Assembly: GCF_002007605.1 (NCBI RefSeq)
Contig: NZ_CP019799.1
Span: forward strand, 4,008,001 to 4,072,000
Reading direction: 5' to 3'
DNA from: Cellvibrio sp. PSBB023
Lineage (GTDB): Bacteria; Pseudomonadota; Gammaproteobacteria; Pseudomonadales; Cellvibrionaceae
DNA length: 64,000 nucleotides
Below the pieces are notes generated by a model. It was not told where the DNA came from. It ran no database searches and saw only the letters and a program-made list of their open reading frames with translations. A program made the translations under genes and the position numbers. Each line of letters opens with the position of its first letter. The first letter of the stretch is position 1. Positions 1,565 through 25,037 of this stretch are shown piece after piece.

Positions 1565-4003
1565 ATGATCATGCACAAACGATTCAAACCGAAAGAACTC
1601 GCGTTATTGATCAGCCTTGGTTGCGTTATGGCTGCTCCCGCTGTTCTTGCACAAGAAGCCAAAAAAGATGACGTAGTAGAGTTGGAAACCTACACCGCTG
1701 AAGGTCAGGTAGAAGACACTATGGGTGTTATGTCCACCGAGCCGGTGAAATCTGTATTTGGTTTTGGTAAAACTATTTTGGAAACCCCGCGCGGCGTGAC
1801 TACCGTCAGTGCCGATATGATGGAAAATTTTAGCATCAACGATATTGATGATTTGGTGTTGATTTCTCCCGGCGCGTTTACCCAGTCCTTCTTTGGTGTT
1901 GCCGGTTCTCTGGATGTGCGCGGTACCCCCGGTGAAGTGTATTTCCGTGGTGTGCGCCGTGTGAATAACCCCGGTAACTACCCAACGCCCATTGGTGCGA
2001 CCGACCGTATCGATATTGTGCGCGGCCCGGCATCACCCATTTATGGTCCTTCCAAAATTGGTGGTTACCTCAACTTCGAGCCCAAGTCTGCACGTGCGGA
2101 AACCGGTCAGTACTTGGAAAAACCTGCCGGTGAAATTTCCATGACTCGCGGCAGTTGGGACAAAAACGTATTGAGTGCAGAAGTAGGTGGCCCTGCTTCT
2201 ATCGGCGAAAAAAGTTTGGGTTACTATATTTACGCGGAAACCGAAAACTCTGGTAGTTATTACGAAAACTCCGGTACCGACCAGAATATTTTGCAAGCCT
2301 CCTTCAATATGGATTTGAGTGATAAAACCCGCCTGGAGTTTGGCGGTATGTATCACGAATATGATGGCAACCAAGTGGCCGGTTGGAACCGCTTAACCCA
2401 GGATTTAATTGATAACGGCACTTACATTACCGGTTCGCCCACTTCAGTGGATACTGATGGCGATGGTTACAACTCGATTGCAGAATACAGCGCATGGAAG
2501 GATACCTTTGACAAGAGTAACTTCTTTGTTCCTGCCTCTGGCGCTACTAACAGCAGCATGGACCCAGCCTGGGCATTGCAAAATCCAGGCACCACCAAAC
2601 TGAAGGGCAGCCAAACATTGGTGGCTCCGGAAGACCAATTGGTGACCACCGTACAAACCCTGTATTTCGATGCGATTCACGCAGTGAACGACAGCTTCAC
2701 CATCACCAACAAAATGTTTTATGAGTCACTGGAAAACATCAATGAAAACGCGTATGGATTTTCGCAATTTGTAGATACTTATGCGTTTGAAGATCAATTG
2801 ATTTTTGCATTCAACACTGAGCATGGCTCAGCAATTAAAGCCAACTATCAGATATCGCCAAGCATTCGTTACACCGATTTTAAACAAGGTGACGATTTTA
2901 ATTACGAATATTTTGACCGTCGTGATTTGAGCAAGCCTTCTACCGCAATAGATAGAAAGTTACTGGCAACGGTAACTGATTCCGATTATTCCAATTATCT
3001 GGTAGGTGATTTTACTGACTATGGTCTGGCATTTTTAGCGGACTACACCATTGCTGAAAAGTTGGGTGTGTTGCTTGGCGCTCGCTATGACCTGCTTGAT
3101 ATGACATCAAAATCGGTAGGTGAAAAAATCGAGGGGAATCCTGCTGACTTTACTGCCGAAGATAAAGATGAAGGTGGTTCATGGACTGCAAGCTTGTCTT
3201 ACACCACTGATTTTGGTTTCACTCCTTATGTGACCAAATCAACGCAAACCACCATCGTGATGGGGCAGGGCTCAGAAATTGCACCCGGCTTGATTATGAA
3301 TGCAGATGGCACCGCTGCCGGTAACGCCTTGGCGGATTCGGAATTGGAAGAAGTGGGCGTTAAGGGTAGTTTCTTTGATGACCGTTTGTATGTAGCCACA
3401 GCGTATTTTGAACAAACTCGCAGTAACTACAGTGCACAGGATCAGGTCAGTAATAGCACTACCCAATCAGAAGGTTATGAATTGGAAGCCCGCTTCCTGG
3501 TGACCAGTAACTTCACCTTAACTGCCGCCATGACGCATTTGGAAATTACCAACCTTACAGCTCTGGAAAATGGAACCCAATTTGGTTTTGTCGGCGCTGG
3601 CGATTTAACGGGCGTGACAGATCCATCGTTGTTCTACGGCTATGTGATGCAAGGCCTCACGTTGGTGGGTGACGATAAGGCTGCGCTTAAATCCGGTATT
3701 CCGGAGAATATGTATAGCCTGACGGGTGCTTATGATTTTGGAAATGGCGTTCGTGTAACAGCGAGTACCGTTCATGCTGATGCTACTTACTCCGGTTTCT
3801 CAAGAGGCGTGAAATTGCCGTCATACACCTTGTTGAATGCGGGCATCAGCTACGAAGTGGATGCGTGGAAATTCAGTTTGCAGGGTAAAAACCTGACTGA
3901 CGAGCGCTACTTCCGCGCGAACTTCCCTGACCTGTTTGGTAGCACCATTGTATTACCTGAATTGCCACGCAATTTTGTGGCTTCTGCATCCTTCAAGTTT
4001 TAA
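1565..4003 (+). CDS. TonB-dependent outer-membrane receptor, probable purine/nucleoside uptake
   Basis: An 812-residue protein. I chose the ATG at 1565: GGAG lies about 10 nt upstream, and a signal peptide follows at once (basic MHKRFKPK, a hydrophobic core, cleavage after APAVLAQ). A possible TonB box (VVELETYTA) precedes a plug domain with RIDIVRGPASPIYG. The C-terminus ends in a beta-strand terminating in Phe (SASFKF), as usual for outer-membrane barrels. An EF-hand-like loop, DTDGDGYNSIAE, lies at residues 296-307, probably in an extracellular loop. The gene is the first of a run that continues with its own energiser genes and a NUP protein, and a RutR-like site lies upstream. The family is certain. 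The purine substrate is inferred from context only; TonB receptors of this type also carry siderophores or glycans. Confidence 0.9.
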   Translation: MIMHKRFKPKELALLISLGCVMAAPAVLAQEAKKDDVVELETYTAEGQVEDTMGVMSTEPVKSVFGFGKTILETPRGVTTVSADMMENFSINDIDDLVLISPGAFTQSFFGVAGSLDVRGTPGEVYFRGVRRVNNPGNYPTPIGATDRIDIVRGPASPIYGPSKIGGYLNFEPKSARAETGQYLEKPAGEISMTRGSWDKNVLSAEVGGPASIGEKSLGYYIYAETENSGSYYENSGTDQNILQASFNMDLSDKTRLEFGGMYHEYDGNQVAGWNRLTQDLIDNGTYITGSPTSVDTDGDGYNSIAEYSAWKDTFDKSNFFVPASGATNSSMDPAWALQNPGTTKLKGSQTLVAPEDQLVTTVQTLYFDAIHAVNDSFTITNKMFYESLENINENAYGFSQFVDTYAFEDQLIFAFNTEHGSAIKANYQISPSIRYTDFKQGDDFNYEYFDRRDLSKPSTAIDRKLLATVTDSDYSNYLVGDFTDYGLAFLADYTIAEKLGVLLGARYDLLDMTSKSVGEKIEGNPADFTAEDKDEGGSWTASLSYTTDFGFTPYVTKSTQTTIVMGQGSEIAPGLIMNADGTAAGNALADSELEEVGVKGSFFDDRLYVATAYFEQTRSNYSAQDQVSNSTTQSEGYELEARFLVTSNFTLTAAMTHLEITNLTALENGTQFGFVGAGDLTGVTDPSLFYGYVMQGLTLVGDDKAALKSGIPENMYSLTGAYDFGNGVRVTASTVHADATYSGFSRGVKLPSYTLLNAGISYEVDAWKFSLQGKNLTDERYFRANFPDLFGSTIVLPELPRNFVASASFKF

Positions 4004-4014
4004 TCCATGTTACA

Positions 4015-4034
4015 CGGGGCTCCTGTGAGCCCCG
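4015..4034 (+). promoter_or_regulatory. Intercistronic stem-loop between the receptor and DUF3450 genes
   Basis: CGGGGCTC and GAGCCCCG form a perfect 8-bp stem around a CTGT loop, 11 bp after the receptor stop codon. No U-run follows, so it is more likely an mRNA-stabilising or partial-termination element than a full terminator. It would allow much more receptor than energiser to be made from one transcript. Confidence 0.55.
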
Positions 4035-4054
4035 CAATTTGATTGAGGTTGATT

Positions 4055-4810
4055 ATGGTTTTGCGTAAACCCTTGGGAGCTGCATTGATCGCGGTTACCC
4101 TGCTCGCGCACCCGGCTTTCGCCGTAGAAGATAGCCTGCAAAAGCAGGAAACGATTGATAAAAATGCGGCTGCCAGCCAACAGCGCATTGATAAGCTCGC
4201 CGATCAAACGGTAGATGCGTTGCAAACTTATCGCACCGCCTCCCAGCGGTTGGAAAGTTTAACCATTTACAACCAGCAAATGGAAAAACTGATCGCCTCG
4301 CAAAAAAATGAAATTACCAGCATCAAGCGCCAGACGTCTGAAATCGACATTATTGAAACCGGCGCGCTGCCCTTAATGTTGAAAATGACAAAAACGCTCA
4401 CCGAATTAGTTGATGCGGATGTCCCCTTTTTGAAAGACGAGCGCAAAGAGCGCGTCGCTAATCTGCAAACCTTAATTGACCGCGCCGATGTAACGGCGGG
4501 TGAAAAATATCGCCGCATCATGGAAGCCTATTTGGTGGAAGTGGAATATGGCCGTACCATTGAAGCTTATCGCGGTGAATTAGTGGTGAGCAATGAAGCG
4601 CGCACGGTAGATTTTTTGCGTGTCGGTCGTGTGGGCTTGTATTACCAAACACTGGATGGCAACGAAAGTGGTTACTGGAATACCAAACGCGGTGGGTGGG
4701 AAACACTGGATGCGGGTTATCGCACTGCTGTTCGCGATGGTTTGCGTATTGCGCGCAAACAAACACCGCCTGAGTTGTTGACTCTCCCTGTCAATGTGCC
4801 TGCCCAGTAA
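4055..4810 (+). CDS. DUF3450 family periplasmic coiled-coil protein of the TtpC/TonB cluster
   Basis: About 251 residues starting at ATG 4055, with GAGG six bases upstream. The signal peptide ends near HPAFA. The N-terminal half is heptad-rich coiled coil (residues about 30-100); the C-terminal half carries the family features VGLYYQTLDG and GYWNT. DUF3450 proteins are typically encoded immediately before a TolQ/ExbB protein with a long periplasmic extension, as here, and are thought to act in the periplasm with it. Their biochemical role is not established. The gene ends 12 bp before the ttpC-like gene, consistent with one operon. Confidence 0.85.
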   Translation: MVLRKPLGAALIAVTLLAHPAFAVEDSLQKQETIDKNAAASQQRIDKLADQTVDALQTYRTASQRLESLTIYNQQMEKLIASQKNEITSIKRQTSEIDIIETGALPLMLKMTKTLTELVDADVPFLKDERKERVANLQTLIDRADVTAGEKYRRIMEAYLVEVEYGRTIEAYRGELVVSNEARTVDFLRVGRVGLYYQTLDGNESGYWNTKRGGWETLDAGYRTAVRDGLRIARKQTPPELLTLPVNVPAQ

Positions 4811-4822: not shown

Positions 4823-6232
4823 ATGAAACCTACGTTGAAATTCGCTCGTCATATTTTGAGTAACGCAGCAGCTGGCCTGGTGCTGACTGCCAGTGCCGTT
4901 GCGCTTACCGCAGCGGTGAGTGCGCAAGCCCAAACTGGCGATGCCTTAAAAAGCCTGTACCAACAAATTAACAAAGAAGTCACAGCGGAAGCGACCCATA
5001 ACACAGAGCGTGAACAACGTTTCCGTGCAGCGGCCGGTGAGCAGCAAGCCATGTTGGCGGATGTGCAAAACAAATTGGCGGCGCAAGAAAAATTGCGCGC
5101 CGAAATGCAATCCGTATTTGATGCCAATGAAAATGAATTGGCTGAATTATCCACCCAATTGGATAAACGCACCGGGAATTTGGGCGAGCTGTTTGGTGTA
5201 TTTCGTCAAATGGCGGGCGACACCCAACAAATGCTGTTTGATTCGGTTATCTCGGTAGAGCACCCGGAACGCATTGCTTTGTTGCAATCCCTGGCGGAAA
5301 CCAAAGAAGTTCCCACCATCACCCAAATGCAACAGCTGTGGAGTTTGATGCTGCAAGAAGTGTCGCTGTCAGGCACGGTCAGTCGCTTTGAAACCACAGT
5401 AGTAAAACCCAGCGGTGAAAGCTACAAGGCGCCAGTGACTCGTATCGGTACATTCAATATTGTCTCGGGCGATAAATATTTAAATTATGTGTCAGACAGC
5501 CAACAACTGGTTGAATTGGCGCGTCAGCCTAGCGGTTCCATTCGCTCTACGGCGGCTGATCTCAGCAAAAGTTCAGGCGATACCTCTGTCGGTTTTGCAT
5601 TGGATCCTTCGCGCGGCGCGCTGCTTGGATTGTTAGTGCAGTCACCGAGTTTTATGGAGCGTGTAGACCAAGGCCAACAGGTGGGTTATGCGATTATTGC
5701 ACTGGGCATTATCGGTTTGTTGGTGGTGCTTGAGCGCATGATTAAATTGGGCCGTATATCGTCGCTGATGAAGAAACAATTGAAAGACATGGAGCACCCT
5801 GCTAACGACAATCCATTGGGCCGCATGATGCTCGCCTACTACGAAAACAAACACCTGAAAGATTTGGATGTGCTCAGTAAAAAACTCGACGAAGTTATTT
5901 TTAAAGACCTCGCCGAACTGCGCAAAGGTTTGTCCACCATCAAAGTGCTCGCCGCCATTGCACCGCTCATGGGATTGCTCGGTACAGTGACCGGTATGAT
6001 CGGCACCTTCCAGGCCATCACCCTCTTTGGTGCAGGTGATCCAAAACTCATGGCGGGCGGAATTTCGCAAGCGCTGGTAACCACAGTGCAAGGTTTGGTG
6101 GTCGCAATTCCGCTGTTGTTGTCGAGCAATATGCTCAGCAGCCGCGCGCAACAACTCAGCAAAGTCATTGGTGAGCAAGCGTCGGGCATGATCGCTGAAA
6201 AAGCGGTTGATATTGCCCAGTCCAAAGCCTAA
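4823..6232 (+). CDS. TtpC-like MotA/TolQ/ExbB proton-channel protein with long periplasmic domain
   Basis: A 469-residue protein, about twice the length of ExbB. It starts at ATG 4823 behind AAGGAA. The signal-like segment ends near SAQAQ; a largely helical periplasmic part spans about residues 38-270; the C-terminal 200 residues are a MotA/TolQ/ExbB domain with three membrane segments, including LAAIAPLMGLLGTVTGMIGTF. In Vibrio the equivalent TtpC is needed for TonB2-dependent transport and works with ExbB2-ExbD2-TonB2. The gene order here (DUF3450, ttpC, exbB, exbD, tonB, TPR) matches that system. It probably couples the proton gradient to the local TonB and hence to the receptor encoded upstream. 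Confidence 0.9.
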   Translation: MKPTLKFARHILSNAAAGLVLTASAVALTAAVSAQAQTGDALKSLYQQINKEVTAEATHNTEREQRFRAAAGEQQAMLADVQNKLAAQEKLRAEMQSVFDANENELAELSTQLDKRTGNLGELFGVFRQMAGDTQQMLFDSVISVEHPERIALLQSLAETKEVPTITQMQQLWSLMLQEVSLSGTVSRFETTVVKPSGESYKAPVTRIGTFNIVSGDKYLNYVSDSQQLVELARQPSGSIRSTAADLSKSSGDTSVGFALDPSRGALLGLLVQSPSFMERVDQGQQVGYAIIALGIIGLLVVLERMIKLGRISSLMKKQLKDMEHPANDNPLGRMMLAYYENKHLKDLDVLSKKLDEVIFKDLAELRKGLSTIKVLAAIAPLMGLLGTVTGMIGTFQAITLFGAGDPKLMAGGISQALVTTVQGLVVAIPLLLSSNMLSSRAQQLSKVIGEQASGMIAEKAVDIAQSKA

Positions 6233-6249: not shown

Positions 6250-6765
6250 ATGGAATTATTTACATCTCTCGGTGATTTTCTCAACACCGGCGGCAATGTG
6301 CTCTGGGCCATTATGTTCATCAGTTTCTGGTTGTTTTTCCTGATCATTGAGCGCTACTGGTTTTATCTGCGCGAATACCCGGCCTTCCGCGCGCGCAATC
6401 GCGCTGCATGGCAGGCGCGCAGCGATAAATCTTCATGGTTTGCCGAGCAGCAGCGCAAACAGTTGTTGTCGGAGTTGGATTGTTTAATGTTGCGTAATCT
6501 GAAATTAATTCCTGCACTGATTGCACTGCTGCCCATGATGGGGTTACTCGGTACCGTGACCGGCATGATTCAGGTTTTTGAAGTGATGGCTTACCTGGGG
6601 TCAGGCAACCCGCGCGCAATGGCAAACGGGGTGAGTGCGGCCACCATTCCCACCATGGCCGGTATGGTGTTGTCCCTGGTGGGCATTCCCTTTATGACGG
6701 AATTAAATCGTCGCTACCAGCGCGAACTGCGCGAGAACGCGGCGGCAATGCCTCTGTTTCATTAA
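6250..6765 (+). CDS. exbB: ExbB/TolQ-type proton channel subunit
   Basis: 171 residues with three membrane segments; the MotA/TolQ/ExbB signature IALLPMMGLLGTVTGMIQVF spans the second and third. It is shorter than E. coli ExbB (244 residues), as is usual for the ExbB2 type found with TtpC. It starts at ATG 6250, 17 bp after ttpC. It is expected to form the inner-membrane proton channel with ExbD and TonB. The pairing with a dedicated receptor is inferred from the operon. Confidence 0.9.
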   Translation: MELFTSLGDFLNTGGNVLWAIMFISFWLFFLIIERYWFYLREYPAFRARNRAAWQARSDKSSWFAEQQRKQLLSELDCLMLRNLKLIPALIALLPMMGLLGTVTGMIQVFEVMAYLGSGNPRAMANGVSAATIPTMAGMVLSLVGIPFMTELNRRYQRELRENAAAMPLFH

Positions 6766-6793: not shown

Positions 6794-7201
6794 ATGAGTG
6801 ACAATCGTTTTTTAATGAATGAAGAAGACGAAGCGCAAATCGATTTAACACCCATGCTCGATGTGGTGTTCATCATGCTGATTTTCTTTATCGTTACCTC
6901 TACGTTTGTAAAAGAATCGGGTGTGGATGTCACACGGCCGCAGGCGGAAACCTCGGTGGTTACTGAATCCAATGCAATTCAAATTGGCATTACGGCCGCG
7001 AATCAAATTTTTATGGATAAGCGTCAAATTGATAAGCGTGCGATTCGCGCCAACGTGGAAAAATCCCTCGCTGAAAACCCCGGTGCGTCCGTCATTATTG
7101 TGGCCGATCAGGATTCCAATACTCACACCTTGATTGATGTTATGGATCAGGCGCGCCTCGCCGGTGCGACATCGGTTTCGGTTGCGTCGGAGAATGACTA
7201 A
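6794..7201 (+). CDS. exbD: ExbD/TolR-type transport protein
   Basis: 135 residues: a short cytoplasmic segment, one membrane helix (MLDVVFIMLIFFIVTSTFV) and a periplasmic ExbD/TolR domain. The Asp of the ID-LTPMLD motif just inside the helix corresponds to the conserved proton-relay residue of the family. The stop codon shares its last base with the ATG of tonB (TAATG, 7199-7203), indicating coupled translation. Confidence 0.92.
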   Translation: MSDNRFLMNEEDEAQIDLTPMLDVVFIMLIFFIVTSTFVKESGVDVTRPQAETSVVTESNAIQIGITAANQIFMDKRQIDKRAIRANVEKSLAENPGASVIIVADQDSNTHTLIDVMDQARLAGATSVSVASEND

Positions 7202-7833
7202 TGCTTGCGAAATACAGCTTCAGCCTGGTGGCAGCCGTAGTGCTTGGGCTGCTGGTGTTTGTCGCCATGCAGGCATTGATTGCGACGGATGGCATGTTTC
7301 AGGAACCGGATAAAAGCCACACCTATTTAAATTTTGTGCGGGTGGATACCAGCAACGACGATGTGAATACCAAGGATCGTCGTTTGCCGGAGCCACCGCC
7401 GCCGCCGGAAACGCCACCGGATGTGCCCGACCTGAGCAATCAGATGATGGCAACCAACACCAATTTAAATATGGATATGCCCAAAATCGGTACGCAAGTC
7501 AGCGGAGGTTCTGGGCCTTTTCTCGGCACTTTATCTGCTGGTGATGGCATGTCCGGTTTTGATACCGATGTGATTCCGGTAGTGCGTGTTCCTCCGGCTT
7601 ATCCGCAGCGCGCCAAGCAAGCAAAACTGGAAGGTAAGGTGACCATGGCGGTAACGATTCGCCCCGATGGTACGGTGGCTGATGTGCAAGTCATTGAATC
7701 CAATCCGCCACGGTTATTTGACCAGGCCGCAATTCAAGCCATGCAGCGCTGGAAATTCCGCCCGAAAATTGTGAACGGTAAACCCGAAGCGCAACGTGCG
7801 CGTCAGACCATTGATTTCAAATTGAGTCAATAG
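7201..7833 (+). CDS. tonB: TonB energy-transducing protein
   Basis: 210 residues. One N-terminal membrane helix (about 7-27) is followed by a short proline-rich stretch (EPPPPPETPPDVP, about 64-77) and a C-terminal TonB domain with PPAYPQRAKQAKLEG, the typical YP motif, and FRPKIVNGKP. The proline-rich spacer is much shorter than in E. coli TonB, as in TonB2-type proteins that act with TtpC. It spans the periplasm to contact the TonB box of the receptor. It directly follows and overlaps exbD. Confidence 0.92.
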   Translation: MLAKYSFSLVAAVVLGLLVFVAMQALIATDGMFQEPDKSHTYLNFVRVDTSNDDVNTKDRRLPEPPPPPETPPDVPDLSNQMMATNTNLNMDMPKIGTQVSGGSGPFLGTLSAGDGMSGFDTDVIPVVRVPPAYPQRAKQAKLEGKVTMAVTIRPDGTVADVQVIESNPPRLFDQAAIQAMQRWKFRPKIVNGKPEAQRARQTIDFKLSQ

Positions 7834-7867: not shown

Positions 7868-9169
7868 ATGGCAATAAGCAATTCATTAACGAAACCCGCA
7901 ATGAATCCTTTAGCAAGGCAATTGTGGCGCGCCACTAAAATCAGCGCATTTATTGCGGGGCTGGTGTTATCTGCCAATAGCTGGTCTGCCTCCAAATCGG
8001 TGAGTGCGACAACCTTCAAGCAGCTCACCAGCATTCAGGAGCAAATCTCGGCCAACAAAACTACCGAGGCTTTTAATGCATTAAAAAGTTTGCACGGTGA
8101 GGTTGAGGCCGGTTCCATCGATGAGGCTCTGGTGTTGCAAATGCTGGGCTACACCGAAATGGGGCGCAACAATTATGCGCAGGCTATTGATTATTTAAAA
8201 CGCAGCCTAGCGTTGGATATGTTGCCGGAAAATGTGAAATACAACGTGGGCTATATGGTCGCGCAGTTGTACGCCTCACTGGAAAAATACGATGAAGCGC
8301 TGGTGTTTGCCGAAGAGTGGTTTAAAACCATTGCGTCGCCTACACCGGAACAAGCGATTTTCATGGCCAATATTTTTGCCCAAACCGGCAAATACCAGCA
8401 GGCCATTCCCTATGTGAAACAAGCGATTGCTGCCGGTGTGAGCAGCGGCAAAGAGCCGCGCGAAAGTTGGTACCAATTGTATATTGCCTGTAGTTTTGAA
8501 TTGAAAGATTACGTGCAAGCCGCCGATGCGCTGCAAACGGCGATTAAAACCTGGCCGCAAAAATCCGAGTACTGGGAGCAGTTGGCCAGCGTGTACGTGA
8601 TGCAGGGCAAAGAGTTAAAAGGCCTTGCCAGTTTGCAATTGGCGTGGAAGCTGGGGGTATTGCAAAAAGAAGCGTCTATCCGCTCTATGGTGCAGTTGTC
8701 GGTAACCCAGGGCGTACCGGAAGTGGGCGCCCGTTTACTGGAAGCTGCGCTGCAAAAAAATGATGTGCCACGCAATGAAACTTATCTGGATCTGTTAGCC
8801 AATGCCTGGATTGCCGCACGCGAAAGCAAGCAGGCAATTGACGCGTTTGAAGAGCTCGCCAAGGTCACAAACAACGGCGAAGCCCATGTGCGTATTGCCA
8901 ATATTTATATGGAGCAAGCCAAGTGGAAACCGGCAGAGCAGGCGCTGCGCAAAGCGCTTTCTGGCAGTTTAAAAGAACCGGGCAAAGCCTGGTTAATTCT
9001 CGGTATTGTCATGACCGAGCAAACCCAATTTGATCAAGGGTTAGATGCCTTCAAAAAAGCGCGCGCCTATGCCTATACCGAAAAACAAGCGGGTTCCTGG
9101 TTGAAGTACGCGGAGGATTTGCGTCGCCAACACAATTGGATTACGCGCAACCAAGAGAGCGAGAGTTAA
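7868..9169 (+). CDS. Exported TPR protein of the TonB cluster
   Basis: 433 residues. An N-terminal export signal ends near NSWSA and is followed by many TPR-like helical pairs, for example EALVLQMLGYTEMGRNNYAQ and the repeated Y-x-x-A-x-x-Y patterns. Vibrio tonB2 clusters also carry a TPR protein after tonB, reported to help TonB2 function. It lies 34 bp after tonB and 24 bp before the NUP gene, so it appears to link the transport genes to the enzyme genes in one transcript. A periplasmic scaffold role is inferred. Confidence 0.8.
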   Translation: MAISNSLTKPAMNPLARQLWRATKISAFIAGLVLSANSWSASKSVSATTFKQLTSIQEQISANKTTEAFNALKSLHGEVEAGSIDEALVLQMLGYTEMGRNNYAQAIDYLKRSLALDMLPENVKYNVGYMVAQLYASLEKYDEALVFAEEWFKTIASPTPEQAIFMANIFAQTGKYQQAIPYVKQAIAAGVSSGKEPRESWYQLYIACSFELKDYVQAADALQTAIKTWPQKSEYWEQLASVYVMQGKELKGLASLQLAWKLGVLQKEASIRSMVQLSVTQGVPEVGARLLEAALQKNDVPRNETYLDLLANAWIAARESKQAIDAFEELAKVTNNGEAHVRIANIYMEQAKWKPAEQALRKALSGSLKEPGKAWLILGIVMTEQTQFDQGLDAFKKARAYAYTEKQAGSWLKYAEDLRRQHNWITRNQESES

Positions 9170-10330: not shown

Positions 10331-10375
10331 TCGCCGTCTACAAAAACGGGAATAGCTTGTTGTCGCGCCGGCGGA

Positions 10376-10471
10376 GTTCCGGTGTTATTTCTGAGACACG
10401 CCGTGAATACATCCATGTAGGCTCAGCGTCGACATCCATGTCTCCGATGGTCTCAGAAACAACACCGGAAC
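10376..10471 (-). repeat. Intergenic palindromic repeat, family member 1
   Basis: A 96-bp element with 22-bp terminal inverted arms (10376-10397 and 10450-10471, one mismatch) around a 52-bp centre. On the minus strand its 62-bp core aligns without gaps to the element at 16596. It contains CCATGTAGGCTCAGCGTCGA and no gene. It separates the transport part of the locus from the ureide cassette. Confidence 0.8.
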
Positions 10472-10485
10472 CCCTTGGTGAAAGT

Positions 10486-10514
10486 TAGTTGCGAGATTCT
10501 GTTGGTTTTATAAT
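10486..10514 (+). promoter_or_regulatory. Weak candidate promoter for the ureide cassette
   Basis: A perfect TATAAT at 10509-10514 lies 26 bp before the amidase start. The hexamer 17 bp upstream (TAGTTG, 10486-10491) is a poor -35, so an activator or an extended -10 would be needed. The preceding repeat element makes a separate promoter plausible here. Confidence 0.3.
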
Positions 10515-10539
10515 CCTCGCTTTCAAAGGCTTCACATTC

Positions 10540-14149: not shown

Positions 14150-14214
14150 AAAGAATATTCACGAGCGATTCGTGTTGATGTGTTTTGTTGTTAGCCGTTG
14201 TCAGGAGTTATGAA

Positions 14215-16595: not shown

Positions 16596-16689
16596 TGGTG
16601 TTATGTGCTCGGAGACCGCCGGAGCCAAGGATGGCGACGACGAGCCCCCAGGGAAGGGTTTACGGCGAGTCTCCGGGTGCATAACACCA
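16596..16689 (+). repeat. Intergenic palindromic repeat, family member 2
   Basis: A 94-bp element with outer arms TGGTGTTATG and CATAACACCA and inner arms CGGAGA and TCTCCG. Its 62-bp core runs from GAGACC to GTCTC and aligns without gaps to the reverse of the element at 10376. It occupies the leader of the allantoate amidohydrolase gene, and an open frame through it (GTG 16605) is spurious. Confidence 0.8.
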
Positions 16690-16724
16690 GTCGCAGCGCC
16701 ACAATCCCGATTGAGAAAAGCATC

Positions 16725-17960
16725 TTGAACGAAATCAGCACCGAAGCACTAGCAGAAAAAGTCATGCACTGGTGCGATCAACTCGCCGCCATCAGCTCGC
16801 ACCCGGAAAATATCAGCCGATTTTATTTAACGCCAGAGCACAAACGGTGCAACGAATTGGTTGCACAATGGATGCAAGACGCAGGCATGGAGACCTGGGT
16901 TGATGCGGCGGGAAATCTTTGTGGTCGTTACGATGGAAAAAATCCTTGCGCAAAAACCTTAATACTTGCTTCGCATTTGGATTCAATTCCCAACGCTGGC
17001 GCCTATGACGGGATTCTCGGTGTACTGGTTGCAATCGCTGTCGTGGAGCAGTTCTACCAAAACGATATTACACTGCCCTATGCCATCGATATTATTGGCT
17101 TTGGTGATGAAGAAGGCACACGTTTCGGCAGCACCTTATTAGGCAGCCGCGCCGTCGCAGGCACCTGGAATCCCGAGTGGTGGGAGTTAAAAGATCGCAA
17201 CGGAATCAGTTTAAAACAAGCCTTTATCGATTTTGGTTTGGACCCCGACAATATTCACAGCGCTGCACGCAACCCCGACGACTTACTCGCCTACCTTGAA
17301 GTCCATATTGAGCAGGGGCCGGTCTTGGAAAATGAAAACCTGGCGCTCGGTATTGTCACTGCCATCGCCGGTGCGCGTCGTTTTTCGATTGACATAGAAG
17401 GCTACGCCGGACACGCCGGGACAGTGCCTATGCCCATGCGCAAAGATGCACTGGTCGGCGCTGCACTGGGTGTTGTGCTGGTAGAAAATATCGCCAACGA
17501 ATTCGATGTTGTTGCTACTGTCGGAAAAATTGAATGCGGCCCCGGCGCCGTCAATGTCATTCCCGGTCACGCCACATTTACCATTGATATTCGTTCCGGT
17601 GATGATCAGCTGCGTGATCAAGCCTTTGCAAAAATCCAGCATGAACTGGATATGATTTGCCTGAATAGAAACCTTGTGGCGCGCTGGACCGAAATTCACA
17701 ACGCACCAGCAGTAGTCTGCGCGGATTGGATACAAGCATTACAAGCGTCAGTATTGCGCGATATGAATTTACATCCTTACACATTAATGAGCGGCGCCGG
17801 TCACGATGCCATGGCCATGGCCGATATTTGTGATGTGGCCATGTACTTTGTGCGCTGCAAAGGGGGGGTGAGTCACCACCCGGATGAATCAGTCACTGTG
17901 GATGATGTTGCTCTGGCGATTGATGCGCTCAGCAATACATTACAAAAACTGGCGCAATAA
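16725..17960 (+). CDS. M20-family allantoate amidohydrolase (AllC/HpxK-like)
   Basis: About 411 residues from TTG 16725, the usual family length; an ATG at 16764 would cut the first helix (EALAEKVMHWCDQLAAIS) that relatives keep, and the longer frame from 16605 runs through a repeat element. Metal-ligand motifs of the M20 carbamoylase group are all present: HLDSIPNAGAYDG, GDEEGTRFG, EVHIEQGP and GAGHDAMAMA. The family cleaves N-carbamoyl groups; the neighbouring HpxJ-like and HpxW-like genes point to allantoate as the substrate, giving ureidoglycine, CO2 and ammonia. A beta-ureidopropionase role cannot be excluded. Confidence 0.8.
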   Translation: MNEISTEALAEKVMHWCDQLAAISSHPENISRFYLTPEHKRCNELVAQWMQDAGMETWVDAAGNLCGRYDGKNPCAKTLILASHLDSIPNAGAYDGILGVLVAIAVVEQFYQNDITLPYAIDIIGFGDEEGTRFGSTLLGSRAVAGTWNPEWWELKDRNGISLKQAFIDFGLDPDNIHSAARNPDDLLAYLEVHIEQGPVLENENLALGIVTAIAGARRFSIDIEGYAGHAGTVPMPMRKDALVGAALGVVLVENIANEFDVVATVGKIECGPGAVNVIPGHATFTIDIRSGDDQLRDQAFAKIQHELDMICLNRNLVARWTEIHNAPAVVCADWIQALQASVLRDMNLHPYTLMSGAGHDAMAMADICDVAMYFVRCKGGVSHHPDESVTVDDVALAIDALSNTLQKLAQ

Positions 17961-18021: not shown

Positions 18022-18606
18022 ATGGATAAACACTTTATTACCGCCAATGAACTCTTGTTGGATTCATTCAAATTGGGCGAGCAAATCTACCAGCGCGGTT
18101 TTCGTCCGCATTTTATTGTGGGTGTGTGGCGCGGCGGCTCACCCGTGGGCATTGCGGTACAAGAATATTTGGAGTGTGTTGGTGTGCCGACCGATCACAT
18201 CGCCATTCGCACCTCGTCCTATTACGGCATCGACAAACAAAGCAAAGACATTCGTGTACACGGGTTGGATTACATCGTCAAAAATGTGGATGCGGATCAG
18301 GAATTATTAATTGTGGATGATGTGTTCGACTCGGGGCGTTCTATTCAAGCCATCATCAGCGAAATAAAACGCAAGTCCCGTCGCAATACCCCAAATACCA
18401 TCAAAATTGCCTGCCCCTGGTATAAGCCCTCGCGCAACGTCACCGATTTAAAACCGGATTTTTACGTCCACGCCACCGACCGCTGGCTAGTGTTCCCTCA
18501 CGAACTTTGCGGATTAACCCCGCAGGAAATTTTGCAAGGCAAAGGCAGCGAAATTGCCGATACCATTGCACGGGCAACGGATACCAAACAGTTTAAGGAC
18601 GTTTAA
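18022..18606 (+). CDS. Purine phosphoribosyltransferase (hypoxanthine/guanine/xanthine type)
   Basis: 194 residues. The PRPP-binding motif LLIVDDVFDSGRS and the upstream GVWRGGSPVG loop mark a type I phosphoribosyltransferase. A nucleobase-binding C-terminal segment (LKPDFYVHATDRWLVFPHE) resembles xanthine or hypoxanthine phosphoribosyltransferases. It would return bases released by the deaminase and nucleosidases to the nucleotide pool. It is the last gene of the plus-strand arm. Its stop codon overlaps the stop codon of the opposite-strand GGDEF gene. Confidence 0.85.
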   Translation: MDKHFITANELLLDSFKLGEQIYQRGFRPHFIVGVWRGGSPVGIAVQEYLECVGVPTDHIAIRTSSYYGIDKQSKDIRVHGLDYIVKNVDADQELLIVDDVFDSGRSIQAIISEIKRKSRRNTPNTIKIACPWYKPSRNVTDLKPDFYVHATDRWLVFPHELCGLTPQEILQGKGSEIADTIARATDTKQFKDV

Positions 18607-19650: not shown

Positions 19651-20742
19651 TTATTGGTTCAGCGTGTCGCGGAAGGTTTTGAAAATCCGTGCCGGTTCAG
19701 TGGTGCGGCAGACGGTGATGGACGGATAGGTTTTATCCTTTACCAGAGTGCCCGCCGTTTTTGCCTCCAGGTGATTGCGTTTTTTTCCGTCCCAGCGTGT
19801 ATCCGGCATGCTGTTGTCGGTGGTTTGTTGCCAGGGGGTACTAGTGGTTTGATAGTCCACGCGCAGCGATTGCCTGTCGCCGTGGCACAGCGCTGGCTCC
19901 ATAGCAATCATGACGGCAAGGGTGTCCCAAAAATAATACTCATTGCTGGCAATAAACCAGTCATTTTTATCCAGCACGGCATCCCAAAATGCGGCTGAGT
20001 CTGTTGCAACGGCTTGTTTGAAATCGGCTGCGACCTGAGTGGTTACACGCACGGAATTGGTTACATCCAGGCCGACTAATACCATCGGCAGACCGGCGGC
20101 GAACACTTTATCGGCGGCGAGTGGGTCGACAAAAATATTCCATTCCGCCGTGGTGTTGGGGTGACCTTTGGTAAACAGCGGCACAATAATATTGCCCGGT
20201 GCATCTACCGTTCCGCCCATAATTACCAGTTGATCAATCTTGCTTTTGTCATTGGGATAACGCTCCAACCATTGGGCGATATTGGTCAGCGGGCCGGTGG
20301 CGATCAGCGTGACAGGCTCTTTTGCTGAGGCCAGCGCCGTGTGGATTATGTCGGCGGCGTGTTGGTCGCTGGCGACGCGCGCGCTGGGTTTCAGGGGCAC
20401 GCCGGAGAGGGTGTCGGAATCTTTGCGCCAGGCTTCAGGAAACACAAAATAACCATCGAGTGGATAGTCGTCGCCACAGGCAACGGGAATGTGTTTATTC
20501 AACTTGCCGGATAAATCGATCAGCGCATTGGTGTTATCCAGGCCGGGTTTGCAGTGCGATTCGCCGCTTGCAGAAATGGTCACGGCAATTACATCCGCCT
20601 TGGGGTGATGCAATAAATACAGCAGGGCTGCCCAGTCATCAATCGCCATATCGTTATCAAAAATAAGGGGCTTGGCATAGCTGCCCCAACTGGCACTGAC
20701 AAAAAGCATGGCGAGCAAAAAATGTTTCATCATCATAATCAT
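19651..20742 (-). CDS. Exported inosine/uridine-preferring nucleoside hydrolase
   Basis: About 363 residues with a signal peptide ending near GSYA. The calcium-binding signature of nucleoside hydrolases appears as DNDMAIDDWAAL (canonical DxDxxxDD), with the later motif LIATGPLTNIAQWL. It splits nucleosides into base and ribose; with the signal peptide it should do so in the periplasm. The start codon is only eight bases after the U-run of a terminator and has no visible Shine-Dalgarno sequence. Several ATG codons are clustered (20742, 20736, 20733, 20730), so the exact start is uncertain. Confidence 0.88.
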   Translation of the reverse strand: MIMMMKHFLLAMLFVSASWGSYAKPLIFDNDMAIDDWAALLYLLHHPKADVIAVTISASGESHCKPGLDNTNALIDLSGKLNKHIPVACGDDYPLDGYFVFPEAWRKDSDTLSGVPLKPSARVASDQHAADIIHTALASAKEPVTLIATGPLTNIAQWLERYPNDKSKIDQLVIMGGTVDAPGNIIVPLFTKGHPNTTAEWNIFVDPLAADKVFAAGLPMVLVGLDVTNSVRVTTQVAADFKQAVATDSAAFWDAVLDKNDWFIASNEYYFWDTLAVMIAMEPALCHGDRQSLRVDYQTTSTPWQQTTDNSMPDTRWDGKKRNHLEAKTAGTLVKDKTYPSITVCRTTEPARIFKTFRDTLNQ

Positions 20743-20790: not shown

Positions 20791-21876
20791 TTATTTCACT
20801 GAGGGTGTGGTGTGTTGATAGTTGTCCCAACCGCGCAGCAGTTCTTGCACTACGCGATTGCCCAAACCATAGGCGGCTTCAATCGCGGGCAAACCTTTAT
20901 CCGGGTAGGGCGCGGTGGTGCTCCAGGCAGCGGTTTTACCCGGTGGCGGGAAGCTGAAATTACTCACGGTGCGCAATACCAATACGCGCTCGGTATCCAC
21001 CAATTTTGCTTTCGCCAAACGATGCAGCGCAGTGAGGCTGCCGTTATCTTCCATATTGGTGGTCATAAAATTGCTGTCTTTGCCGGCATGCAAATGCATC
21101 CAGTCATTGGCCCAAGTATTTAATAATTCGCCGTGCCAGTAAGTGCTGGAGCCGATAGTGTCGCCAATGGTGACAAAGGGTGCGCGCAGCGCGTTGGGAA
21201 AGCCTTGGTATTGTTCGCGAAATTGTTTCATCGCGGGTGTGTCGGCAACCGGGTGATCTTTGGTGAGTTGGTAAGCCCAATCAACCAGTGTCGGATTCAA
21301 GTGGTACACAATGGTATCCACAGTCCAACCGGTGGATTCCTGATTGGGTTCTTTAGCGCCCAGCGGGATCAATCCGTATTTCCAATCTTTGGGAATTTCG
21401 CGGCCATCGATTTCATACAATAAATCGCCATCCACCACGTGTTTTGCCCATACGCCGGTGCCCAGTGATACGTCTAATGGGTCGCCACCACCAATGCCGG
21501 CAATGACCCAATAGGCTTTGGATAAATCAAAGCGCGGGTCGGTGCCCAGCGCCATAATCGATGCGGTAGCGTTGGTAACGCCCCCTCCGGTGCATATCGC
21601 CAGTATGCCTGCCTCATTCATGTGCAAATCATAGGCGCCGAGTGGAAAGGGAAATTGTTTGTTCAGCTTCTGGCGTTCAATCCAGAGTTGATATTCACCC
21701 GCTTCATCCCCGGTGACATCGCCATTTTCAAACATGCTCACTACAACCACTTTCACTGGAATCGCTGCATTTTTTGCGGGTGTAGCCGCATTAGCGCCGG
21801 TTGCGAACAGCATAGTGGCGATGATGAGCAATGCTCGCCCCGGAAAATTAAATAACCACTTTTGTAAAACCAACAT
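20791..21876 (-). CDS. NUP-family exported protein, second paralogue
   Basis: 361 residues. The signal peptide has a hydrophobic core ending near TGANA, without a lipobox, so the protein should be free in the periplasm. It shares with the lipoprotein at 9194 the opening VVVSMFENGD, the GEYQLWIERQKLN segment, the AGIGGGDP loop and the motifs M275-E-D and R302-T-V-S-N306. The last pair recalls the purine-site motifs of the nucleoside phosphorylase fold, but here Val replaces Gly in the RTGSN form. It has no membrane segments, so it is not a permease by itself. A RutR-like site lies 91 bp upstream of its start and a strong terminator follows it. Confidence 0.85.
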   Translation of the reverse strand: MLVLQKWLFNFPGRALLIIATMLFATGANAATPAKNAAIPVKVVVVSMFENGDVTGDEAGEYQLWIERQKLNKQFPFPLGAYDLHMNEAGILAICTGGGVTNATASIMALGTDPRFDLSKAYWVIAGIGGGDPLDVSLGTGVWAKHVVDGDLLYEIDGREIPKDWKYGLIPLGAKEPNQESTGWTVDTIVYHLNPTLVDWAYQLTKDHPVADTPAMKQFREQYQGFPNALRAPFVTIGDTIGSSTYWHGELLNTWANDWMHLHAGKDSNFMTTNMEDNGSLTALHRLAKAKLVDTERVLVLRTVSNFSFPPPGKTAAWSTTAPYPDKGLPAIEAAYGLGNRVVQELLRGWDNYQHTTPSVK

Positions 21877-21966: not shown

Positions 21967-21980
21967 TGACCAATCGGACA
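21967..21980. promoter_or_regulatory. RutR-like operator, copy 2
   Basis: TGACCAATCGGACA; positions 1, 2, 4, 5 and 7 pair with positions 14, 13, 11, 10 and 8 as an imperfect palindrome. It differs from copy 1 at a single base. It lies between the NUP gene it precedes (minus strand) and the stop of the next upstream gene. Confidence 0.55.
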
Positions 21981-22018: not shown

Positions 22019-23062
22019 CTATTTGTAACCACCACGTAAATAGCGGTGAAATGCCAGGTTCACCCAAATCGCCTCAGGTGTTACCGACCATGCCGGGTTG
22101 AGTTGTTGAATCGCCTTTACCAGCGCGGGCGCCTGTGCCGGGAGTGCTAACAGCAGTGCCGTTTCCTTGCCATTGCTTACAGCAATTTGCGTCGCGCTGG
22201 CAAAACCTTCTGCGGCCGTGTGGCTGCGATAAAAGGGTTGCCACCAGGCGCCGCGAATTAAACCGGTTTGATTCGCACTTTCTTTTTTGGCGTAGCGATC
22301 AATCGCGGCAACAAAACGGGTTTTGTCGGCTGCAGAGGGAAATTCAAAATGCAAATCGTATTCGCTGGCTTCAACCAGTCGACGCTGATTACCCAACTCA
22401 ATCAGTGATTGGCTCAGTGTGCCCCAGTCATCGCGGTATAAAAATGCCGATGTTTTGCGCGAAAGCCCAACGCGCGCCTGCAAACCTTCACTGGCCAAGA
22501 GTGCCAGTAATTGCTGCGCATGTTGTATATCGCTGTGCCCATAAATCAAGTGGCGTTCAGTGGCAAATAAGGGCCAGGGCGTGGTGACCAGGTTATAACC
22601 GGTAGCAATTCCCTGCGCGATTAGCTGGCGCAATTCCAGTGCAAAGGATGAGGGTGCTACGGCACTGCTGTTGTACCACTGGGTCGCAATACGTTGATAC
22701 AGCGATGCTTCATTCAGCTGCCCCAAATACGCCGAATCGTGGCGTGAGTAGTGGACGATAAAATCGCGCAGCGCTTGCTCACCATCATTAAGCGGTGCAC
22801 CAATCAATTCCAACACTGCGGCTGCTTGTAATTCCGGCAGTGACAGTTGTTCTTCATTTGCCAGCGAGCTGATTGCCAAGGCTTTGGTGCGACTAAAGGT
22901 TGTTGCCAGTTCGCTGTAGCCCAACTGCGTTACTGCCTGTTGGTAGAGCTTGCTACTTGTCGCTTTATCGACAGGTGCTTTTGCATAACTGCCCATTGCC
23001 CATAACGCGGCACTCATCAACAGGCAGCGAGTGAGAAGTTTGTGGTATTGGTGTAAAAACAT
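22019..23062 (-). CDS. Exported protein of unknown function in the purine locus
   Basis: 347 residues. The N-terminal signal peptide ends near GSYA-KA. The rest is soluble and alpha-helical in character, rich in Ala, Leu and Gln, with no membrane segment, no Cys pairs and no motif I recognise. Features that could help a profile search are PWPLFATERHLIYGHSD, LLALLASEGLQARVG and RGAWWQPFYRS. A terminator lies between it and the nucleosidase gene upstream, but there is no gene between them. By position and predicted location it may serve in periplasmic nucleoside handling; this is guilt by association only. Confidence 0.7.
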   Translation of the reverse strand: MFLHQYHKLLTRCLLMSAALWAMGSYAKAPVDKATSSKLYQQAVTQLGYSELATTFSRTKALAISSLANEEQLSLPELQAAAVLELIGAPLNDGEQALRDFIVHYSRHDSAYLGQLNEASLYQRIATQWYNSSAVAPSSFALELRQLIAQGIATGYNLVTTPWPLFATERHLIYGHSDIQHAQQLLALLASEGLQARVGLSRKTSAFLYRDDWGTLSQSLIELGNQRRLVEASEYDLHFEFPSAADKTRFVAAIDRYAKKESANQTGLIRGAWWQPFYRSHTAAEGFASATQIAVSNGKETALLLALPAQAPALVKAIQQLNPAWSVTPEAIWVNLAFHRYLRGGYK

Positions 23063-23089
23063 AAAAATCCTGCGTTATCAAATGGTCAT

Positions 23090-23111
23090 AAAAAAGCCCG
23101 CAAAAGCGGGC
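23090..23111 (-). terminator. Intrinsic terminator after the nucleosidase gene
   Basis: On the minus strand GCCCGC-TTTT-GCGGGC is followed by six T residues. It closes the deaminase-nucleosidase unit and lies 28 bases before the start of the next minus-strand gene. Confidence 0.8.
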
Positions 23112-23162
23112 AAACTACTACAGAGGAGAACAACATGAAAAAGGTAAAACAACAGGGTTCAG

Positions 23163-24008
23163 TTACAAAAATTTCAGCAAGTGCAATGAAAATTTTGCCG
23201 CTTCGCGCGCGGCAATCGGGCCGAGACGAAGGTAATCATCATTGGGCGCCTCTTGGGCAACATTGCTACCGGAACGCACAATCAAATAAGGGACTCCCAG
23301 GGTTTGGCAGACATGACCCAGTGGTGCAGATTCCATTTCCATAATGTCAGTTTTAAATCTGTTGCGCAGTGAATCAATACGCGCCTGGGTAACACCAAAT
23401 AAATCAGATGATGCCACAACACCGTAGCGCACCTTGTTTTTGTAAGTGCTGCCATTGGCGGTAACGGTTTGCGCTTCATAGCTATCCATCGCCTGCTGTG
23501 CAATAGCCAAAAGAGATGGCGTTGGTTTAAATTCATTTTCAACTTCTTTGCCATCATCCGGACTATTCATGGGGCGATAGACCATGTCATTTTTAGTAAG
23601 GCTGCCGTAATCATGCTCATAAGTGTGGGTAGCAACAATCACATCGCCAGTACGCAATTGTTGGTTAATGCGTGCCCCCGTACCTGTCATCAATACCAAA
23701 CGCGGTTTGAATTCTTTAATAAACAAAGTGGTGGTCATGCCGGTATAGGTTTTGCCAATACCAGTGATGGCAATTACCACCGGTTTACCATGCAATTTCC
23801 CTTGCCAATAAGGAATTCCCCACAGGGATTTTTTCTCTGGATTTTCCAGCGCATTGGTGAGCACAGGAATTTCCTGGGGAACCGCGCCCAGAATAACAAT
23901 GGTATCTGTTGCCTCATAATAAGCAGGTTTTTCTTGTGCAAAACTATTGCTGGTTATGGCGCAGCAGAGGGCGATAAAACCCAGCGCGCGAACAAAAATG
24001 GTCATCAT
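23163..24008 (-). CDS. Exported MTAN/PNP-type purine nucleosidase with Asn in place of the catalytic Asp
   Basis: 281 residues of the PNP/UDP phosphorylase superfamily. A signal peptide ends near NSFAQ, unusual for a family that is normally cytosolic. Family motifs: GAVPQEIPVL, GTGARINQQLRTGDVIV, M223-E-M-E226-S (nucleoside ribose contact) and R245-S-G-S-N249. In E. coli MTA/SAH nucleosidase the last motif is AISD and its Asp donates a proton to the purine; here it is Asn, as in the PNPs that prefer 6-oxopurines. The enzyme is therefore likely to act on inosine or guanosine in the periplasm. It lies 15 bp after the deaminase gene in one operon. Confidence 0.85.
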   Translation of the reverse strand: MMTIFVRALGFIALCCAITSNSFAQEKPAYYEATDTIVILGAVPQEIPVLTNALENPEKKSLWGIPYWQGKLHGKPVVIAITGIGKTYTGMTTTLFIKEFKPRLVLMTGTGARINQQLRTGDVIVATHTYEHDYGSLTKNDMVYRPMNSPDDGKEVENEFKPTPSLLAIAQQAMDSYEAQTVTANGSTYKNKVRYGVVASSDLFGVTQARIDSLRNRFKTDIMEMESAPLGHVCQTLGVPYLIVRSGSNVAQEAPNDDYLRLGPIAAREAAKFSLHLLKFL

Positions 24009-24023
24009 ATTTCTCTCAATAAA

Positions 24024-25037
24024 TTAATGTGTTAAGGCGGAAGCCAAATAATGGTTTAACCGGGTGAGGTAAGTATTTTTCTCTTGTTCTGGCAGCCATG
24101 CCACGCGAAAGGCATTGCCAACCAGCGTGGCAATTTCCTCATTACTGAAGTTGCCTTCACGCTGTAACTCAACCAAATTTTCATTCAGGTAAGCGCGAAA
24201 ATAGGCTGGATCATCAGAGTTAATGGTGGCGAGCATGCCTTTGTCGAGCATGCGACGAATCTCGGCAGAGGTCAGCGACTGCACGACAAAACGGTTGGAT
24301 ACAGGGCACACTGTCAACCCCAGGCCGCGGGCTTTTATCGCGTCGCAGAGCGCATCGCTTTCCAGCGAATTAACACCGTGATCAATACGATCAACTTCTA
24401 TGTCATCCAGACACTGGCCGATATGCAGTAAGGTGTTCTGTTGATTCACATCGCAGTGCATGGTGAGTTTTAAGCCCATCTCCCGCGCTTTTTTAAACAC
24501 CGCTGCAAACTTGACTGGCGGGTTATTTTTTTCATCGGAATCCAGGCCAACACCCACCAACCATGCGCGATAGGGTTCTGCCATCAACAAGTGTTCCATG
24601 GCCGACTCCGCGCTCATATCGCGCAGGAAACACATAATCAATTGGCTTTTAACGCCGAGCTTTGATTCGGCATCTTCCTGGGCGGCGCGAATCCCGCGAA
24701 TCACTACACCAAAATCGACCCCTCGACTGGTGTGCGCTTGCGGGTCAAAAAATAATTCTGCATAAACGGTATTTTGGCTATAAGCCTTGCTCAGGTAATT
24801 CCAGGTGAGCTGATAAAAATCAGCCTCATCCTGCAGGACTTTCATCGCCCCATAATAAATCGTTAAAAAAGAGGGCAGGTCATAAAAGTCATAGGCAGCG
24901 ACCAATTCCTCTGGTGTCGCATAGCCCAGTTCAACATTATTTTTGCGCGCCAGAGCAAAGCTCAACTCTGGCTCAAGGGTTCCCTCAAGGTGCACATGTA
25001 ACTCGGCTTTAGGCATATTTTCGATAAAGGTTTGCAT
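24024..25037 (-). CDS. Adenosine-deaminase-family paralogue with HAGE replaced by HCDV
   Basis: 337 residues from ATG 25037 (GGAG upstream; the longer frame to 25067 is unsupported). Zinc-site motifs HVHLEGTLE, DRIDHG and NSDDPAYF are intact. The catalytic HAGE motif, present in the paralogues at 2 and 15499, reads H194-C-D-V197 here, so the Glu that protonates the purine is absent at its usual place. HCD variants recur in some Add-family proteins in my recollection, so this is probably a true subfamily, perhaps with another substrate. It heads the minus-strand arm behind two RutR-like sites and is followed by the exported nucleosidase. Confidence 0.85.
   Translation of the reverse strand: MQTFIENMPKAELHVHLEGTLEPELSFALARKNNVELGYATPEELVAAYDFYDLPSFLTIYYGAMKVLQDEADFYQLTWNYLSKAYSQNTVYAELFFDPQAHTSRGVDFGVVIRGIRAAQEDAESKLGVKSQLIMCFLRDMSAESAMEHLLMAEPYRAWLVGVGLDSDEKNNPPVKFAAVFKKAREMGLKLTMHCDVNQQNTLLHIGQCLDDIEVDRIDHGVNSLESDALCDAIKARGLGLTVCPVSNRFVVQSLTSAEIRRMLDKGMLATINSDDPAYFRAYLNENLVELQREGNFSNEEIATLVGNAFRVAWLPEQEKNTYLTRLNHYLASALTH

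Follow-up and report, generated by a model that had tools for sequence, protein, structure and literature searches.

A probable purine-nitrogen scavenging locus in Cellvibrio sp. PSBB023, led by a TonB-dependent receptor with a sigma-54-type promoter

What does a TonB-dependent outer-membrane receptor carry when its gene stands among genes for purine breakdown? The question is raised by a 64,000-nucleotide stretch of the Cellvibrio sp. PSBB023 chromosome (positions 4008001-4072000 of the single-contig, 4.705-Mb genome; hereafter the window), which encodes a receptor of 812 aa (1565..4003, + strand; ATG at 1565) with a Plug domain (E 7e-12), a beta-barrel domain (E 3e-17) and nearest named relatives in Cellvibrio. 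A first-pass annotation of the window had described positions 1565-25037 as a complete purine scavenging locus composed of this receptor, a six-gene TonB set, nucleoside-acting enzymes, deaminases and HpxW/HpxJ/HpxK-type genes. All of these parts do lie together there, but the locus is not complete within those bounds, since genes for xanthine dehydrogenase, urate oxidase, a HIU-hydrolase-like, an OHCU-decarboxylase-like and an allantoinase-like protein are located to the left of the window. They belong to 22 kb of further purine genes that had been overlooked, and the whole locus of about 47 kb runs from chromosome position 3985710 to about 4033150, with its right-hand part in the window. We consider it highly probable that these 47 kb form a purine-nitrogen scavenging locus that combines receptor-led uptake, periplasmic release, base import, catabolism and nitrogen control, with the receptor as the proposed purine/nucleoside entry point.

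The neighbourhoods of related receptors provide the broadest evidence. A profile built from 17 receptors retrieved 308 relatives in genome contigs, and the related loci considered here are the best 79 of these 308 (the best-scoring quarter, with up to 10 kb taken per side), a non-random sample in which Alteromonas and Paraglaciecola are over-represented. The family is spread over Cellvibrio, Alteromonas, Paraglaciecola, Solimonas, Vreelandella and other Gammaproteobacteria. When 40 locus proteins served as tblastn queries (E 1e-10), 71 of the 79 related loci proved to contain one or more of 13 purine gene groups within 10 kb of the receptor, and 50 contained three or more; the window has purine genes at this distance too. 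By contrast, 18 of 21 control proteins from the window's right part matched none of the 79 loci and the other three matched 2, 3 and 6. These neighbourhoods, together with the promoter elements described below, strongly support the assignment of the receptor locus to purines. The most frequent neighbours are the purine nucleoside proteins of the NUP family (69 of the 79 loci), followed by ADGF-type adenosine deaminase (52), the first (48) and second (37) of the other deaminases, PuuE (30), the amidase (28), HpxW, the TauE transporter and guanine deaminase (27 each), allantoate amidohydrolase (24), HpxJ (23), RutR (21), the xanthine dehydrogenase subunits (10-15), PuuD (9), a probable exported protein of unknown family (7) and the phosphoribosyltransferase (5); these raw counts overlap between homologous queries (two NUPs, three deaminases, two amidohydrolases), and the 52 for ADGF include cross-matches. 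Moreover, the NUP match starts at most 0.6 kb past the receptor in 53 loci, and in 8 others it lies 5.0-5.6 kb past it, behind a TonB set. An independent sample of 145 genomes of the order contained the receptor (E 1e-100) in 6, a NUP in 8 and both in 4 (P 6e-5), with receptor and NUP 0.5-5.4 kb apart in these four; one of them is the window's own genome, another (G133) seems to be the same as related locus L066, and two are new. Two further genomes, both from one genus, have NUP but not the receptor, and there the NUP gene adjoins the purine ABC importer. The receptor-purine link is general.

How is the receptor gene controlled? Its promoter holds a RutR-like operator, TAACCAATCGGACA (1476..1489, +), followed by a sigma-54 -24/-12 element, TGGCACAGCGCTTGCT (1495..1510, +), in keeping with the pattern seen when 12 promoters were compared by eye, TRACCNNNNGGWCA and then TGGCAY-N5-TTGC. 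When 77 of the 79 receptor promoters were scored (L041 and L068 were dropped because their upstream sequence was too short), a sigma-54 score of at least 10 was reached by 61 of them against 5 of 1540 shuffles, and an operator score of at least 9 by 51 against 47 of 1540; without the 12 discovery promoters the counts are 50/65 and 40/65. Under stricter criteria, the full 1.6 Mb of related loci yielded 110 sigma-54-like sites (35 upstream of a receptor, 55 upstream of no listed gene) and 28 composites of both elements, of which 24 stand before a receptor, two before an amidase, one before XdhA and one before no listed gene; the reversed-sequence control gave 17 sites and 2 composites. Operator-to-sigma-54 spacing is 19 or 20 bp in all 24 receptor composites; the window and most, not all, relatives have a sigma-54 element preceded at 19-20 bp by a RutR-like operator. 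In the window's own genome (4.7 Mb), the exact sigma-54 pattern occurs 23 times, versus 4 in the reversed control; two of the 23 fall in the purine locus, one by the receptor gene and one by the gene for the purine ABC ATPase. The only RutR-like operators with a score of 10 in the window are the one at 1476, one before the second NUP gene (21967..21980, +) and one before the deaminase/nucleosidase genes (25140..25153, +). Sites with a score of 9 are found in the PuuE-ADGF gap, where the ABC and Xdh genes diverge, and upstream of the nucleoside hydrolase, with 10 more elsewhere in the window, and a tighter operator pattern has 3 of its 13 genome-wide places within the purine locus, which makes up about 1% of the genome.

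Upstream of the composite, palindromes recur. The first-ranked one, GCAC-N7-GTGC, is an NtrC type of site and occurs in 11 of 64 promoters versus 0.1 expected; the next ranks are AT-rich dyads, found in 10 of 64 versus 1.9 expected, and in fewer. Scored by TGCACCANNNTGGTGCA, which we take as the NtrC consensus, a site matching at least 11 of 14 positions is present in 29 of 64 promoters, compared with 13 of 3200 shuffled sequences and 24 of 1260 windows drawn at random. In addition, the regulator encoded in the locus belongs to the TetR_C_3 family, with RutR (3loc) as its closest solved relative. To judge from these sites, the receptor would respond to nitrogen limitation via sigma-54, most probably together with NtrC, and to a RutR-type purine-pathway regulator.

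Downstream of the receptor, and on the same strand, lie the genes for a DUF3450 protein (TtpB-like; 4043..4810; PF11932, E 2e-89), a TtpC-like long ExbB (4823..6232; MotA_ExbB, E 1e-28), ExbB (6250..6765; MotA_ExbB, E 1e-19), ExbD (6794..7201; PF02472, E 4e-32), TonB (7201..7833; TonB_C, E 4e-25) and a TPR protein (TtpD-like; 7868..9169; TPR families), in the six-gene order DUF3450-TtpC-ExbB-ExbD-TonB-TPR. From receptor to TPR gene, the gaps are 39, 12, 17 and 28 bp, a 1-bp overlap and 34 bp, and a NUP gene follows 24 bp further on; given this tight spacing on one strand, the receptor, the six TonB-set genes and the NUP gene fit one operon. The set is present in 8 of the 79 relatives and lies between receptor and NUP in all eight. 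In a tree of nine purine-locus TtpC proteins, 29 general TtpC proteins and the window genome's own paralogue, the nine form one clade (support 100/100, branch 0.76), and no receptor or purine match was found in roughly 1.5 kb per side of the 29 general ones. Purine-locus TtpC proteins are 55-74% identical to the window's. A whole-genome search of 34 genomes (34 of the 79 loci, including all eight with the set; the other 26 judged by identity, not tree) found such proteins only in the eight with an adjacent set, and the other TtpC matches in these genomes reach 46% identity or less. Across 228 further genomes of the class, long TtpC matches reach 47% identity at most; two shorter C-terminal matches reach 49% and 53% (G210 and G269) and are not among the proteins of the tree. 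Placing presence of the set on the receptor tree by a quick method requires 3 changes, which fits either an old set lost several times or transfer. In two of the closest Cellvibrio loci, which lack the set, about 1.1-1.2 kb separate receptor and NUP. In L009, the gap between the two encodes a 321-aa protein that by eye resembles an exported phosphorylase.

How might the parts work together? Decaying biomass would supply nucleosides, helped by a putatively secreted RNase T2, and the receptor would import scarce purine nucleosides across the outer membrane; these are its most likely cargo, with bases or small oligonucleotides less likely. The adjacent six-protein set would energise the receptor in this organism. 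In the periplasm, the ADGF deaminase, the two NUPs, the nucleoside hydrolase and the MTAN-like enzyme, all predicted to be exported, would release bases, which a Bmp-type ABC importer would carry inward. There the cytoplasmic deaminases, xanthine dehydrogenase, PuuD-type urate oxidase, HIU hydrolase and OHCU decarboxylase would act on them, and a PuuE-type allantoinase, allantoate amidohydrolase, HpxJ and HpxW/amidase would lead on to ammonia, glyoxylate or glycine, and oxamate products. The RutR-family regulator would sense the pathway, while sigma-54 with NtrC would turn on the receptor operon under nitrogen limitation.

One may argue that the receptor is an iron-siderophore receptor that lies beside purine genes by chance. 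Several of its relatives carry siderophore-receptor names in databases, its solved-structure relatives by sequence include siderophore receptors, and siderophore receptors are its top fold matches. However, the fold is uninformative on cargo because the same list also includes BtuB and PqqU, and the 11 NCBIfam models among the matches listed, siderophore, heme and B12 models included, all score far below their cut-offs (51.8 versus 884 bits for the best). The best Fur-box score in the receptor promoter, 13/19, is also reached by 43 of 500 shuffled sequences, and the promoters of 12 relatives share no Fur-like site at a common position. Nitrogen and purine control is therefore favoured over iron, because sigma-54, RutR-like and NtrC-like sites are present and no Fur box stands out; with purine neighbours at 71 of 79 related loci besides, a siderophore receptor in a chance setting is very improbable. 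A different objection accepts the purine cargo and holds that the adjacent TonB set is not private, being a general energiser, or that other TonBs serve the receptor. There are 13 TonB_C matches in the genome, along with another DUF3450-TtpC-ExbB-ExbD-TonB-TPR set at 3.93 Mb (L007:8517-13708) with no neighbouring receptor, so the window's TonB is not the cell's sole TonB. By eye, the genes adjoining the 3.93-Mb set resemble thyA and folA. Moreover, 71 of the 79 relatives, the closest Cellvibrio loci among them, have the receptor without the set, so that a private energiser does not define the system. This is to be set against the distinct TtpC clade, found only beside such receptors in the genomes searched, and the fixed position between receptor and NUP in 8 of 8 loci. 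What survives of the earlier claim of an own TonB energiser is thus a co-inherited set, of a single TtpC clade and in a constant place, in a minority of the family; an adjacent set that is not private, or a receptor that draws on other TonBs, we consider less likely than not.

Further observations weigh against a purine-nucleoside receptor under nitrogen control. By their size, nucleosides and bases can pass through porins, so the need for a TonB receptor is puzzling. The receptor could instead import oligoribonucleotides or another large purine conjugate, the breakdown of which the periplasmic enzymes would finish. The substrates of TonB receptors are generally ones that porins do not admit for their size, and an RNase T2 with a signal-like N-terminus is indeed encoded in the locus. 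RNase T2 is found at just one of the 79 related loci, versus 69 for NUP and 52 for ADGF, and no phosphatase or nucleotidase was seen among the annotated locus genes, although no search was aimed at them; we find such a large cargo unlikely. Other genes of the locus are likewise rare near relatives (MTAN at 4 loci, the chemoreceptor at 2, the nucleoside hydrolase at none of the 79), and 8 of the 79 loci have no listed purine enzyme nearby. In these eight, where Pfam was run on 20 chosen neighbours, L048 and L067 have a xanthine/uracil permease gene close by, which leaves six without a purine explanation (L016, L029, L039, L059, L077 and L083; L077 ends at the receptor); three of them, L029, L039 and L059, keep both promoter elements at a spacing of 20-21 bp. 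As for the promoter, the sigma-54 score is missing in 16 of 77 receptor promoters and the operator score in 26, and the composite is found in none of five order-sample receptor loci (L122-L126, 47-53% identical). The operator pattern is no commoner genome-wide than in the reversed control (15 versus 22 rows), and the window's own NtrC-like site matches only 10 of 14 positions, a score that 132 of 1260 random windows reach. At the inner membrane, no NCS2 xanthine/uracil permease was found in the genome, other carrier families not having been searched, and the ABC importer is therefore the only base importer found; its second permease gene (L008:10103-11229) consists of two overlapping open reading frames in different frames, which correspond, one after the other, to a single longer protein of L065 or L081. 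The split is either a real frameshift or a sequence error, and import across the inner membrane may be defective or depend on a carrier outside those searched.

How does this putative nucleoside-scavenging locus compare with known systems? The hpx genes of Klebsiella pneumoniae form a purine-catabolism system with the same branch of HpxW, HpxJ and allantoate amidohydrolase (solved relatives 3nnk and 5hft). Set against the Klebsiella genes, the present locus stands apart by its outer-membrane receptor, its TonB set and its probably exported nucleoside enzymes, as well as by a PuuD-type urate oxidase and a PuuE-type allantoinase. Polysaccharide-utilisation loci unite a TonB receptor with exported enzymes and a regulator, and here, too, receptor, exported enzymes, importer, catabolism and regulator are in one place, but the cargo class would be purines. 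The regulator resembles E. coli RutR in its TetR_C_3 family and best solved match (3loc), and its presumed operator resembles what we take to be the E. coli RutR site, TTGACCANNTGGTCAA. E. coli RutR is a pyrimidine regulator, whereas the protein here is encoded among purine genes, and the window's three best sites end in GGACA, not GGTCA. The TonB set itself has close counterparts: according to one source (PMC6957404), the Vibrio TonB2 and TonB3 systems consist of the six genes TtpB-TtpC-ExbB-ExbD-TonB-TtpD, with TtpB (DUF3450) first and TtpD (TPR) last in V. vulnificus, where TonB2 does not function without either of them. TonB2, which transports iron bound to siderophores, carries a putative Fur box, and the TonB3 operon begins with an outer-membrane receptor gene. 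The present set has the same six protein kinds, with DUF3450 first and TPR last, and a leading receptor gene as in TonB3, a likeness of gene order; unlike the two Vibrio systems, as that text describes them, its gene row runs on into a NUP gene and a purine locus and has a sigma-54/RutR-like promoter. The earlier description of a dedicated TonB system for purines as less described is fair, but a receptor plus six-gene set is already known, because Vibrio TonB3 has both (PMC6957404). The novelty here lies in the purine setting, in the promoter and in how widely the receptor family is distributed. No TonB receptor for nucleosides or purines was described among the matches listed, which cover open-access titles and abstract starts, with subscription journals mostly outside, and the main text of PMC3400609 contains none of the words nucleoside, nucleotide, purine and xanthine.

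On balance we lean, if slightly, towards a wider interpretation, in which this gammaproteobacterial TonB receptor family is a nitrogen-controlled (sigma-54), active import route for purine nucleosides across the outer membrane, the first described as far as the literature searched here shows, with an old subset that has its own TonB engine, lost repeatedly where general TonB suffices. If this is true, a nucleic-acid building block joins the known TonB-dependent cargo, a receptor family partly annotated as siderophore receptors gains a testable function, and the route accounts for how some bacteria gain scarce purine nitrogen. In addition, genomes with and without the adjacent TonB set offer a natural comparison on whether extra TonB systems are private to one receptor. 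A separate feature of the receptor is an EF-hand-like calcium loop at residues 296-307 (D-x-D-x-D-G-x-x-S-x-x-E), with a similar pattern in 66 of 80 family receptors, which may form a calcium-stabilised outer loop.

The genes left of the window begin, in chromosome order and on the - strand, with an amidohydrolase, the RutR-type TetR regulator, a Bmp/PnrA-type binding protein, two ABC permeases and an ATPase. The best solved matches of the binding protein are 6pi5 ('atrazine periplasmic binding protein') and 3s99 ('basic membrane lipoprotein'), both of which we take to bind purine bases. After the ATPase come XdhA, XdhB and XdhC, an OHCU-decarboxylase-like and then a transthyretin/HIU-hydrolase-like protein (both named by eye), a guanine-deaminase-like amidohydrolase, a urate oxidase (PF06181, presumably PuuD) and an alpha/beta hydrolase. 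They are followed by a chemoreceptor with a dCache domain (L003:7947-9881), a cupin, the RNase T2, a polysaccharide-deacetylase-fold protein, read as a PuuE-type allantoinase, and the start of the ADGF deaminase. Lying within the purine locus, the dCache protein is a candidate purine chemoreceptor.

Within the window, three A_deaminase proteins are present, as first described: the ADGF-type adenosine deaminase that ends at 1285 (1..1285, +; PF00962, E 6e-39), whose full reading frame of 499 aa starts 215 bp left of the window (L003:12787-14286) with a signal-like N-terminus, an adenosine deaminase without a visible signal peptide (15499..16566, +; NF006850, 529 bits, cut-off 419) and a second cytoplasmic paralogue (24024..25037, -; TIGR01430, 338 bits, cut-off 217). 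Signal peptides were judged by eye, and on this basis the four nucleoside enzymes named earlier as exported are likely to be so: the NUP-family purine nucleoside protein behind the TonB set, a probable lipoprotein with a lipobox-like LTAC (9194..10330, +; PF06516, E 4e-116), a second NUP-family protein (20791..21876, -; PF06516, E 7e-107), an inosine-uridine-type nucleoside hydrolase (19651..20742, -; PF01156, E 6e-57) and an MTA/SAH nucleosidase-type protein of the phosphorylase superfamily (23163..24008, -; PF01048, E 2e-38; TIGR01704, 90 bits, cut-off 74), the last three with signal-like N-termini. Both NUP proteins exceed the PF06516 cut-off, and the nucleoside hydrolase has one match in the order sample (L124). 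Beyond these four, the ADGF deaminase and the RNase T2 look exported too.

The HpxW/HpxJ/HpxK-type branch is likewise borne out, by an HpxW-type amidohydrolase of gamma-glutamyltransferase fold (11718..13328, +; PF01019, E 1e-121), whose best solved match, 5hft, is listed as gamma-glutamyltranspeptidase and is presumably HpxW, by an HpxJ/PucG-type ureidoglycine-glyoxylate aminotransferase (14185..15471, +; best solved matches 3nnk, 633 bits, and 3isl) and by an allantoate amidohydrolase of HpxK/AllC type, an M20 protein (16605..17960, +; NF006775, 609 bits, cut-off 479). An amidase proposed for the oxamate/ureide branch precedes them (10489..11721, +; NF006169, 437 bits, cut-off 391). Between the first NUP gene and the amidase gene, at 10373-10474, is a 25-bp inverted repeat, 92% complementary with 52 nt between its arms and with no second copy within 3 mismatches in the window. 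A TauE/SafE-family membrane transporter (13316..14149, +; PF01925, E 2e-50) adjoins HpxW in all 27 related loci that have the transporter and occurs without HpxW in one further locus (L124); it could export oxamate, oxalate or glyoxylate products. A purine phosphoribosyltransferase-like protein (18022..18606, +; PF00156, E 1e-11) scores only 43 bits to the HGPRTase model TIGR01203 (cut-off 150). Next to it, at 18603-19556 (-), is a PAS-GGDEF diguanylate cyclase, and GGDEF matches occur in 15 of the 79 related loci, several directly after NUP. Finally, a probable exported protein (22019..23062, -), with no Pfam match, is conserved in its C-terminal half, with the motifs YGHS, WWQPF and WVN, and in 6 of the 7 related loci with a homologue the gene lies 0.3-3.2 kb before the receptor.

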